A stretch of DNA of 64,000 bases from an uncultured bacterium (GTDB taxonomy: Bacteria; Cyanobacteriota; Vampirovibrionia; Gastranaerophilales; Gastranaerophilaceae). Both the position numbers and the translations under genes were made by a program. This document shows, one piece after another, positions 28,178 to 36,870 of the stretch. Position 1 is the first letter of the stretch, and every line of letters starts with the position of its first letter. The stretch lies in NCBI GenBank assembly GCA_949297715.1, contig CASFTJ010000002.1, positions 189,112-253,111 on the forward strand. The letters are read 5' to 3'. The notes below the pieces were generated by a model. That model was not told the origin of the DNA. It did no database searches and worked only from the letters and a program-made list of their open reading frames with translations.

Positions 28178-28212
28178 AAAAGAGTAGCATAGAAAAAGAT
28201 AAGGAGCTGGAA

Positions 28213-28260
28213 ATGCTTGATATGATTGAATTACAGGGGGGGGGGGGCACCCGAGAATAG
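28213..28260 (+). promoter_or_regulatory. Phase-variable leader of pilin 1, G12, ATG out of frame
   Basis: AAGGAG at 28201 is 6 bases before the ATG at 28213, which reads MLDMIELQGGGGTRE and stops at TAG 28258-28260. The run of 12 G is 28236-28247. Removing one G would join this start to the pilin frame. Confidence 0.75.
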
Positions 28261-28951
28261 CTCCTTAAGAGGGAAAGAAACCGGTTTTACATTAGCAGAA
28301 GTCTTAATAACTATTGGAATTATCGGACTTGTTGCGGCAATGACATTGCCTGCGTTAATCAACAATAACAGAAATAAAGCACTTGAAACAGCATTTAAGA
28401 AGAATTATTCGGCAATAAGTCAGGCTTTAAATATGTATTACGCTCAAAACGGCGAACGACTTACACCTGAATACGTCGGTGCACAAGAACTCAAACCTAT
28501 ATTAATCAAGTATATGAATGTATTGCATGATTGTGGATTTGGGTATCTAGATTCTGCTTGTATTCCAAACTCTTCAGATGAAACAAAAATTTCAAAAGTA
28601 TATAAAAATTTTAATGGAACTAATACAATAGATTTGAATCCGATGGATGATGGGCAATTTATTTTGAATGATGGCAGTCTTATTTTATTAGAAAATCCTT
28701 CCGCAGGTGGTAGCCTTTATATTTCTGTAGATGTAAACGGATATTTAAAAAATCCAAATAGATTAGGACAGGATTTGTTTATGTTTCAGATTGATGCTAA
28801 AGGGAATTTACTTCCTATGGGTGCAAAGGGAACACAATTTTACAATGCAAATGACGCATTTTGCTCTAAAACATCAACAAGTGATATGAACGGAGCGGGA
28901 TGTACGATAAAAGCAATAAATGAAAAAGATTATTTCACAAAATTGCATTAA
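28226..28951 (+). CDS. Prepilin-like protein 1, G-run gene, apparently OFF
   Basis: About 241 residues in the pilin frame, counted from a TTG at 28226 that has no Shine-Dalgarno. A leader of about 21 residues ending KETG precedes FTLAEVLITIGIIGLVAAMT, the class III signal and N-terminal helix. The body has a variable middle and conserved blocks: MYYAQNGERL, DDGQFILNDGSLILLE, ISVDVNGYLKNPNRLG and a C-terminal GAGCTIKAINEKDYFTKL. Such proteins assemble as major or minor pilins or pseudopilins after cutting by PilD. The likely true start is the ATG at 28213, out of frame by one G. Convergent with ilvC. Confidence 0.85.
   Translation: MNYRGGGAPENSSLRGKETGFTLAEVLITIGIIGLVAAMTLPALINNNRNKALETAFKKNYSAISQALNMYYAQNGERLTPEYVGAQELKPILIKYMNVLHDCGFGYLDSACIPNSSDETKISKVYKNFNGTNTIDLNPMDDGQFILNDGSLILLENPSAGGSLYISVDVNGYLKNPNRLGQDLFMFQIDAKGNLLPMGAKGTQFYNANDAFCSKTSTSDMNGAGCTIKAINEKDYFTKLH
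28236..28247. repeat. Poly-G run, 12 bases
   Basis: Homopolymer inside the coding leader; length decides the frame between ATG 28213 and pilin 1. Confidence 0.95.
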
Positions 28952-30662: not shown

Positions 30663-30674
30663 GGGGGGGGGGGG
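30663..30674. repeat. Isolated poly-G run, 12 bases
   Basis: Twelve G in a non-coding context (after AGTGTT, before CTATTTAAAT). Same length as the pilin leader runs but no ATG or pilin frame beside it. Confidence 0.9.
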
Positions 30675-30843: not shown

Positions 30844-30878
30844 AAAAGAGTAGCATAGAAAAGTATAAGGAGCTGGAA

Positions 30879-31628
30879 ATGCAGGATATGATTGAATTAC
30901 AGGGGGGGGGGGCACCCAAGAATAGCTCCTTAAGAGGCAAAAAGGTAGGATTTACATTAGCGGAAGTCTTGATAACTTTGGGAGTTATCGGATTGGTTGC
31001 AGCGATGACGTTGCCGGCTTTGATTAACAACAACAGAAATAAAGCTCTTGAAACCGCTTTTAAAAAGAATTATTCAGTGATAAGTCAAGCACTGAATATG
31101 TATTATGCACAAAACGGCGAACGACTTACTCCTGAATCTGCAAGAAATCGCCAATTAAAACTTATTTTAACAAAATATATGAATGTTTTACATGATTGCG
31201 GATTTGGAACAGAAGCGGATGCTTCCGCTTGCATTCCAAATCCTAAAGATACAACAAAAAGTTCTAATGTATACAAAAATTTTACAGGGACTAATTCTAT
31301 TTCATTAAATTTATTTGATGACGGTCAATTTGTATTAAATGATGGTAGCCTTATCATGCTTGAAAACAGTACTAATTTATATAGTACTGAATTGTATATT
31401 TCCGTAGATGTAAATGGATATTTAAAAAATCCAAATAGGTTAGGATGGGATTTGTTTATGTTTCAAATAGATGATAAAGGTAACTTATTGCCAATGGGTG
31501 CAAAAGGTACAAGATACTATAATAAAGATGAATTATATTGTTCTAAAAACACAACATATACTACTAATGGCTCTGGATGTACGATAAAAGCAATAAATGA
31601 AAAAGATTATTTTACAAAATTGCGTTAA
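30879..31628 (+). CDS. Prepilin-like protein 2, G-run gene, ON
   Basis: 249 residues from an ATG with AAGGAG 6 bases upstream. The run is 11 G (30902-30912), so MQDMIELQGGGAPKNSSLRG reads straight into KKVG and the FTLAEVLITLGVIGLVAAMT helix. The mature protein shares the conserved blocks of pilin 1 (MYYAQNGERL, DDGQFVLNDGSLIMLE, ISVDVNGYLKNPNRLG, FQIDDKGNLLPMGAKGT, AINEKDYFTKL) with a different middle (about 85-130). This is the only G-run pilin of the four with start and body in one frame, so it should be the expressed one in the sequenced cell population. Convergent with the GNAT-like gene. Confidence 0.93.
   Translation: MQDMIELQGGGAPKNSSLRGKKVGFTLAEVLITLGVIGLVAAMTLPALINNNRNKALETAFKKNYSVISQALNMYYAQNGERLTPESARNRQLKLILTKYMNVLHDCGFGTEADASACIPNPKDTTKSSNVYKNFTGTNSISLNLFDDGQFVLNDGSLIMLENSTNLYSTELYISVDVNGYLKNPNRLGWDLFMFQIDDKGNLLPMGAKGTRYYNKDELYCSKNTTYTTNGSGCTIKAINEKDYFTKLR
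30902..30912. repeat. Poly-G run, 11 bases
   Basis: In-frame length; the other three leader runs have 12. Confidence 0.95.
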
Positions 31629-34845: not shown

Positions 34846-34865
34846 GGAAAGGAGAAGTGTTGGAA

Positions 34866-34914
34866 ATGCTTGATATGATTGAATTACAGGGGGGGGGGGG
34901 CACCCGAGAATAGC
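34866..34914 (+). promoter_or_regulatory. Phase-variable leader of pilin 3, G12, ATG out of frame
   Basis: TGGAAATGCTTGATATG begins a leader identical to those of pilins 1 and 4; upstream the sequence is unrelated. The run is 34889-34900 (12 G) and the ATG frame ends at the TAG just after CGAGAA. Confidence 0.7.
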
Positions 34915-35688
34915 TCCTTAAAAGGGAAAACAAGAGGTTTTACATTAGCAGAAGTTTTGATAACGATAGGTATTATTGGGCTTGTGGCAGCAATGACAAT
35001 GCCAATGTTAATAGCTAACCATCGTAAGCAGGTTATGCTAACAAAGGTTAAACGTACATATAATGTATTGAATAATGCATTAGAACGAGCAAAGGTTGAT
35101 TATGGTACAGATGTAAATGGTTGGTATCTCCCAAAATCAGGAAGCCAATTGGAAAAAAGTATATTTTTTGTAGAAACATATATGCTGCCATATTTAAATA
35201 CTGTTTATTATTGCAAAAATAAATTTGAGGTCTCTTATTGTACTGAGAAGAAATATAACATAAGAGGTGATGACTGGGCTTATATTGGACCTGTTAGTGA
35301 AGATTTCGGAACATCTTTTGTCTTGAATGATGGTGTGTATGTTTATGTTACGGTTGGTGAATTCGCATATACACCTAGTGCTGGTGGTTATGATGAAACT
35401 ATAAATCGAGTAGTTATTCAATTTGATATAGATAATTATAAAGGATATAACAAATTAGGATATGATATATTTATGTTGGAGCTTGGTGGAGCAGAAGGTC
35501 TTTCAAAGAGAAACGATGCTGATAAAAATAAGTTTTTGCCTTATGGCCATAATTCCTCTAAAAGTTGCGATTACTATGTATCAAATATAAATCACGCTTG
35601 TAATCCAGAGGTAACATACCCTGGTTCATATTGTTTAGCGTATATAGTATGTAACGGATGGAGTTTTGGAGATAAATATCCTTGGTAA
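34879..35688 (+). CDS. Prepilin-like protein 3, G-run gene, apparently OFF, different body
   Basis: About 269 residues in the pilin frame. After the shared G-rich leader and FTLAEVLITIGIIGLVAAMT the body belongs to another subfamily: MPMLIANHRKQVMLTKVKRT, then NNALERAKVDYGTDVNGWYL, a long variable part with paired Cys (CKNKFEVSYC) and DNYKGYNKLGYDIFMLELGG. The Gx(x)GxDxF region corresponds to NRLGWDLFMF of the other pilins. The likely start is the ATG at 34866, put out of frame by the twelfth G. A perfect terminator follows. Confidence 0.82.
   Translation: MNYRGGGAPENSSLKGKTRGFTLAEVLITIGIIGLVAAMTMPMLIANHRKQVMLTKVKRTYNVLNNALERAKVDYGTDVNGWYLPKSGSQLEKSIFFVETYMLPYLNTVYYCKNKFEVSYCTEKKYNIRGDDWAYIGPVSEDFGTSFVLNDGVYVYVTVGEFAYTPSAGGYDETINRVVIQFDIDNYKGYNKLGYDIFMLELGGAEGLSKRNDADKNKFLPYGHNSSKSCDYYVSNINHACNPEVTYPGSYCLAYIVCNGWSFGDKYPW
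34889..34900. repeat. Poly-G run, 12 bases
   Basis: Homopolymer in the leader of pilin 3. Confidence 0.95.
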
Positions 35689-36160: not shown

Positions 36161-36194
36161 AAAATAGTAGCATAGAAAAGATAAGGAGCTGGAA

Positions 36195-36242
36195 ATGCTT
36201 GATATGATTGAATTACAGGGGGGGGGGGGCACCCGAGAATAG
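36195..36242 (+). promoter_or_regulatory. Phase-variable leader of pilin 4, G12, ATG out of frame
   Basis: AAGGAG, 6 bases, ATG 36195, then the common MLDMIELQGGGG reading and TAG at 36240-36242. The run is 36218-36229. Confidence 0.75.
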
Positions 36243-36870
36243 CTCCTTAAAAGGAAAAGAAAAGGGTTTTACATTAGCGGAAGTTTTAATTACGATTGGA
36301 ATTATAGGACTTGTGGCGGCTTTGACTTTGCCTGCTTTAATTAACAATAACAGAAATAAAGCACTCGAAACGGCTTTTAAAAAGAATTATTCGGCAATAA
36401 GTCAGGTTTTAAATATGTATTATGCTCAAAATGGTGAAAGGCTTACACCTGAATATGTCGGTCCGCATGAACTTAAACCAATTTTAATAAAATATATGAA
36501 TGTATTACATGATTGTGGTTGGGGAGCTGAGCATACTGACGAAGAATTAAAAAAGGCATGTATTCCATATTCTCCAGATGCAACAAAAAGGTCACAAGTA
36601 TATAAAAATTTTAATGGTACTAATACTATTTATTTAACTTTATTTGATGATGGTCAATTTATTTTGAATGATGGCAGTCTTATTTTATTAGAAAATGTTT
36701 CCGCAGGTGGTAGACTTTATATTTCTGTAGATGTAAACGGGTATTTAAAAAATCCGAACAGATTAGCAAATAATTTATATTGCTCTAAAACATCAACAAG
36801 TACACTGAACGGAGCTGGATGCACAATAAAAGCTATAAATGAAAAAGATTATTTCACAAAATTACATTAA
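36208..36870 (+). CDS. Prepilin-like protein 4, G-run gene, apparently OFF, internal deletion
   Basis: About 220 residues in the pilin frame. Leader, FTLAEVLITIGIIGLVAALT helix and conserved blocks match pilin 1 closely, but GYLKNPNRL joins directly to ANNLYCSKTSTS. Against pilin 1 this removes 27 residues in frame (GQDLFMFQI through the KGT-x-x-Y-N stretch), including the conserved FMFQIDxKGNLLPMGAKG block. The likely start is the ATG at 36195, out of frame by one G. Either a decayed silent copy or a donor of sequence for other pilins. A strong terminator separates it from rpmA. Confidence 0.82.
   Translation: MNYRGGGAPENSSLKGKEKGFTLAEVLITIGIIGLVAALTLPALINNNRNKALETAFKKNYSAISQVLNMYYAQNGERLTPEYVGPHELKPILIKYMNVLHDCGWGAEHTDEELKKACIPYSPDATKRSQVYKNFNGTNTIYLTLFDDGQFILNDGSLILLENVSAGGRLYISVDVNGYLKNPNRLANNLYCSKTSTSTLNGAGCTIKAINEKDYFTKLH
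36218..36229. repeat. Poly-G run, 12 bases
   Basis: Homopolymer in the leader of pilin 4. Confidence 0.95.

Follow-up and report, generated by a model that had tools for sequence, protein, structure and literature searches.

Poly-G leaders with an early out-of-frame stop on pilin-like genes of Gastranaerophilaceae: a probable, mostly OFF phase-variable repertoire

Intragenic poly-G contingency genes are known from Neisseria, where pilC, pglA and lgtA are ON or OFF according to tract length modulo 3 and where meningococcus, gonococcus and N. lactamica hold about 15–19 poly-G tracts per genome (PMC5953494). In Helicobacter, a variable run of about 12 G in the 5' UTR of the tlpB mRNA brings about graded control by the small RNA RepG (PMC8295292). 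Here we analyzed G-run leaders of pilin-like genes in a 64,000-nucleotide stretch (hereafter, the window) of contig CASFTJ010000002.1, from the 2.02-Mb genome of an uncultured member of the Gastranaerophilaceae; the named relatives of its genus are MAGs of Candidatus Gastranaerophilales. Leader hairpins are a further point of comparison, as in RNA thermometers and translational attenuators the Shine-Dalgarno sequence (SD) pairs with a downstream complement and the start codon lies in the loop. A literature search on phase variation or pilins in this bacterial order returned nothing relevant.

The window contains four pilin-like genes, at 28, 31, 35 and 36 kb (Table 1). All four leaders have the form ATG-CTTGATATGATTGAATTACA-G(11–12)-CACCCRAGAATAGCTCCTTAA with minor changes between copies, are near-identical over their whole length, and continue past the run with CACCC(G/A)AGAATAGCTCCTTAA. 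The ON length counted from the SD-preceded ATG is 11 (mod 3), in agreement with the initial annotation (11 plus or minus 3); as assembled, pilin 2 (11 G) is ON and the other three copies (12 G) are OFF. A TAG and a TAA, one per wrong frame, occur at equivalent positions in 4/4 copies, as had been claimed; in pilin 1 they lie 3 and 6 codons past the run rather than the reported 4–5 and 7, a difference of about one that depends on how the last codon of the run is counted. Another 12-G run is found upstream of pilin 2 (30663–30674), outside any pilin leader.

Table 1. Coordinates of leader elements and pilin-like open frames in the window.
Feature	Position	Strand	Basis or remark
SD arm of hairpin TAAGGAGCTG, pilin 1	28200-28209	+	sequence, fold prediction, covariation
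ATG start, pilin 1 leader	28213-28215	+	
12-G run, pilin 1, OFF	28236-28247	+	
TAG, stop of frame occupied at 12 G, pilin 1	28258-28260	+	
Anti-SD arm TAGCTCCTTA, pilin 1	28258-28267	+	fold prediction, covariation
TAA, stop of other wrong frame, pilin 1	28266-28268	+	position not conserved in relatives
Pilin-like open frame 1	28250-28951	+	
SD arm, pilin 2	30866-30875	+	
Pilin 2, in frame from ATG, 11 G, ON	30879-31628	+	
11-G run, pilin 2	30902-30912	+	
TAG / CTCC arm / TAA block, pilin 2	30923-30933	+	
SD arm AAGGAG, pilin 3	34849-34854	+	upstream DNA different
12-G run, pilin 3, OFF	34889-34900	+	
TAG / CTCC arm / TAA block, pilin 3	34911-34921	+	
Pilin-like open frame 3	34903-35688	+	
SD arm, pilin 4	36182-36191	+	
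12-G run, pilin 4, OFF	36218-36229	+	
TAG / CTCC arm / TAA block, pilin 4	36240-36250	+	
Pilin-like open frame 4	36232-36870	+	

The proteins downstream of these leaders carry the prepilin N-terminal methylation motif G|FTLAEVL. Pfam N_methyl scored above its cut-off in three of the four (the fourth reached 19.9 vs 21.2 bits) and TIGR02532 in two. N_methyl matches number 79 in the window's genome, in itself a large number for 2 Mb. The run-less pilins of the same genome have short MKKG-type leaders, and the run leader is therefore an added module, with the order SD, ATG, about 23 nt, G(10–13), immediate stop of the occupied frame, anti-SD arm and prepilin body. The stop block belongs to this module, which some but not all of the pilin-like genes carry.

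Because the four window copies are near-identical close paralogues, their agreement alone is no evidence of selection, and relatives were therefore gathered, one assembly per species throughout. Of 14 genomes examined from the genus, 13 contain the pattern G8+CACC, which has 18 sites in the window's genome, and a reversed control gave nearly none; 135 distinct sites were read, of which 115 had an open frame. Runs of at least 10 G with other flanks were also common (e.g., 43 in G003), and 60 such sites yielded 51 usable genes, so that the main set holds 166 leaders (115 + 51) in which a run precedes an open gene, drawn from 13 species within the window's genus. A second comparison comprised 23 run-leader pilin genes from other genera. 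The exact pattern G8-CACCCGNNAATA is restricted to one genus, and a genus-specific feature was rejected, as runs with different flanks are present in other genera. An assembly artefact was likewise rejected, given that, in independent assemblies, single-base differences in run length offset those in leader length. Several contigs of the window's genome (C14, C15, C19, C20, C29, C34) end within 250 bases of a leader (L012, L013, L014, L015, L016, L018); the repeat thus seems to break assembly, and copy number may be underestimated. A search of viral contigs for same-species strain variation returned no records.

Across 49–81 sequence clusters, stops in both wrong frames within 11 codons were observed in 80–83%, against 48–50% after synonymous recoding, and the ON+1 frame had a stop within 3 codons in 86–89%, against 65–66%. 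Among codon positions picked at random from the first 115 genes, 39% had both stops within 11 codons. The excess over the synonymous-recoding expectation supports selection on early stops, in line with what the initial annotation had expected of related genomes, although that expectation held only in part, since the second stop is not conserved and the first one moves. Among OFF genes, 91% have the occupied-frame stop no more than 4 codons past the run, and in 11% a stop of the other wrong frame is that close. The function of the first, occupied-frame stop is fixed while its sequence and position shift (AATAG, AATAA, CCGTAA, AAGTAA). At the second stop, TTAA turns into TGA or disappears in relatives, where the next stop follows 6–15 codons on; its distance is scattered, chiefly 6, 7, 10 or 11 codons. 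The kept feature is thus the immediate stop in the frame that the gene normally occupies, i.e., OFF.

Counted from the SD-preceded ATG, with start codons assigned by rule and a few possibly wrong, 123 of the 166 genes carry one G in excess of the ON length, 29 are ON and the remaining 14 occupy the other wrong frame. Run length compensates for leader length: ON lengths of 2, 0 and 1 (mod 3) go with modes of 12, 13 and 11 G, respectively. When run lengths were permuted among cluster representatives, far fewer genes were ON+1 (p ≤ 0.0005, an approximate value, as are the p-values below, because clusters lessen relatedness without removing it). The OFF genes are under purifying selection, with a dN/dS of 0.18 (median) for OFF–OFF pairs and of 0.16 for pairs with an ON copy. 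The earlier claim of a selected switch and not a random homopolymer accordingly gains from the early-stop excess in the 49–81 clusters, the purifying selection and the tracking of leader frame by G number, and loses in that the two stops are unequal. No SD-preceded start in the pilin frame was found among the OFF genes, and 59 of them lack any ATG, GTG or TTG start in that frame. The leader TTG as the true start at 12 G was rejected; it is in frame in 73 OFF genes, never with an SD.

ON copies are present in most species, and ON and OFF tract lengths both occur among related copies, which are paralogues and orthologues rather than strains; the state differs between the close relatives L013/L016, L018/L077 and L052/L088. 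Individual leaders varied in other ways. Two genes that are 99.8% identical (L286, L288) have a leader of 29 + 12 G and of 30 + 11 G, leaving the frame total unchanged with a shorter run. One copy has its run interrupted by T (GGGGGGGGGGTGG; L022) and is probably locked, one run is reduced to 7 (L271), and in one leader the codons ATGCAGAGTATGATTGAATTG are duplicated in tandem before the run (L080).

Three other genera of the same family (g2, g4 and g8) have runs with different leaders. In the second comparison, which covers runs of at least 10 G, 21 of 23 pilin genes were OFF, and 86% had the stop no more than 4 codons away. By default, genes of the window's genus and most of those in g4 are in the ON+1 frame, and those of g2 and most of those in g8 are in ON-1/+2. 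Since the default frame is opposite between genera, the rule is a usual OFF state with an immediate stop, not a particular frame. One g2 genome (G055; L372, L378, L396) has 176 runs of at least 10 G, nearly all on one strand per contig. Poly-C (C10–11) pilin leaders also occur in related genera (L348, L369, L372, L373, L374, L388), five of the six being OFF; clear SD/anti-SD pairing was not seen in these six.

The stop block contains a further element that the initial annotation had missed, an anti-SD arm pairing with the ribosome-binding site (RBS), and this accounts in part for the conservation of the block. Specifically, the SD block TAAGGAGCT has its reverse complement, AGCTCCTTA, 3' of the run. 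Folding of the window leader is predicted to produce the SD/anti-SD stem, with an unremarkable energy z-score (-0.94); against Rfam, the leader gave two sub-threshold matches and no match to a leader family at the gathering score. Over 67 clusters, an SD matched the anti-SD of its own gene better than one taken from another gene (z -4.06, p 5e-5), with control windows not significant, and covariation was also detected in other genera (p 0.007). Arms that have changed and still pair include AGGAGA/TCTCCT (L279), AGAGGA/TCCTCT (L329), GAAGG/CCTTC (L320), GGAAG/CTTCC (L301) and GGGAGAG/CTCTCCT (L083), and tolerated wobble pairs suggest that any such pairing takes place in RNA rather than DNA. CTCC occurs within 34 nt 3' of the run in 81% of leaders, compared with 3.7% of ORF-body windows, and its position is constant while the reading frame and residues change (NKLL vs NNAP). 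The occupied-frame stop lies 0–7 nt 5' of CTCC in 104 of 112 OFF genes; a stop of the other wrong frame does so in 11 of 112. A minority of leaders lack the anti-SD (L011, L078 and many of G012), and early stops are still kept there.

Judged from the sequences, these genes probably form a large, mostly OFF repertoire of poly-G phase-variable pilins whose RBS hairpin would be gated by the reading frame. On our analysis, the most likely mechanism is translational phase variation through slippage of the G run, and intragenic poly-G genes provide an established basis for the slippage part (PMC5953494). Slippage would switch individual cells from ON (11 G here) to OFF and back, and we infer that the run slips in living populations and that expression follows the frame. 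In OFF cells, translation from the SD-preceded ATG would terminate within 4 codons past the run, the ribosomes would leave at the stop before the CTCC arm, and the hairpin over the SD would re-form. In ON cells, in-frame ribosomes would pass through the CTCC arm and so hold the RBS open. Gating of translation by the hairpin is suggested by the conserved order of parts (stop, then CTCC). A fuller version, in which the frame of the G run decides between stopping before the start-site-locking arm and melting it, giving a self-reinforcing ON and a tight OFF state across the family, we put forward tentatively as a possibility. Counting against the favoured reading, the excess of one particular wrong frame exceeds the needs of plain stochastic switching.

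The main rival to phase variation is recoding on the run, in which RNA polymerase or the ribosome slips, the 12-G genes are constantly expressed at a low level and the stop ends the unshifted ribosomes. It would suit both the one wrong frame that holds most genes and purifying selection that is as strong on OFF genes as in pairs with an ON copy. We nevertheless consider recoding unlikely, as it is weakened by the opposite default frames between genera, which no single shift direction fits, and by a variable run-to-stop spacing (CAAG, CAACCCG, CACCCGNNAA; 4, 7 or 10 nt); the ON copies of most species also speak against it. Frameshifting of the prfB type depends on a fixed spacing of SD-like element, slip codon and stop, and a prfB-like programmed +1 shift was rejected on this spacing, as was programmed frameshifting in general for want of one shift direction across the family. 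The stops might instead be by-products of the anti-SD arm, recent duplication and AT-rich codons (AAT followed by A or G gives TAA or TAG). A covarying CTCC arm does lie inside the block, and synonymous recoding alone already yields 65% early stops in the ON+1 frame. This explanation is nonetheless improbable: the excess over recoding persists in clusters, a lost stop reappears elsewhere (AATAA to CCGTAA), CTCC supplies no stop itself, and leaders without CTCC (L011, L078) retain early stops.

Two further explanations concern the short default-frame product and the run itself. In several genera the ATG frame commonly terminates just past the run, as it would if the resulting peptide of 15–17 residues (M...GGGGTRE) were a functional product or a leader-peptide regulator. 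Such peptides vary widely between leaders and genera, only the position of the stop being kept, and no separate start serves the pilin frame past the stop, which makes a functional short upstream ORF very improbable. Control by a C-rich small RNA, with run length tuning expression gradually, has a model in H. pylori RepG/tlpB, and the targets of RepG are known to be of this type, with 12 G in an mRNA leader (PMC8295292). The run here lies past the SD-preceded ATG rather than in a 5' UTR, and its length compensates for the frame inside a coding leader, which graded control would not need; we give this explanation scarcely any credence.

If the phase-variation reading is right, these gut-dwelling, non-photosynthetic cyanobacterial relatives would possess a repertoire of poly-G switches that ranks among the larger ones recorded, placed on pilus subunits. 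The fixed OFF default, the immediate stop and the covarying RBS lock would make a tight OFF state out of an otherwise simple slippage tract, which bears on how bacteria silence most members of a surface-protein family. As in SD-sequestering leader hairpins, the SD is predicted to pair with a downstream complement, with the start codon in the loop, and the arms covary; unlike in those hairpins, the complement lies within the coding sequence, behind the G run and directly behind an out-of-frame stop. We know of no SD/anti-SD leader in the Campylobacter poly-G phasome. That phasome resembles the present case in comprising many poly-G surface-structure genes in an AT-rich gut bacterium and differs in its gene families (PMC6321876, PMC8355987). 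As in RepG/tlpB, a variable run of about 12 G in the mRNA leader would act as a regulator, but the present run belongs to the coding leader and determines the reading frame. Like the intragenic poly-G genes of Neisseria, they have a homopolymeric G/C tract (at least 9, near the 5' end) within the reading frame of pilus-related or surface genes, and past the tract the frame is open and shows selection, whether the copy is ON or OFF. In contrast to Neisseria, the switched genes are the prepilin-like proteins themselves, several genomes of the window's genus have 26–63 runs of at least 10 G and the g2 genome has 176 (vs about 15–19), and most copies are OFF in one particular frame and carry a predicted RBS hairpin in addition.
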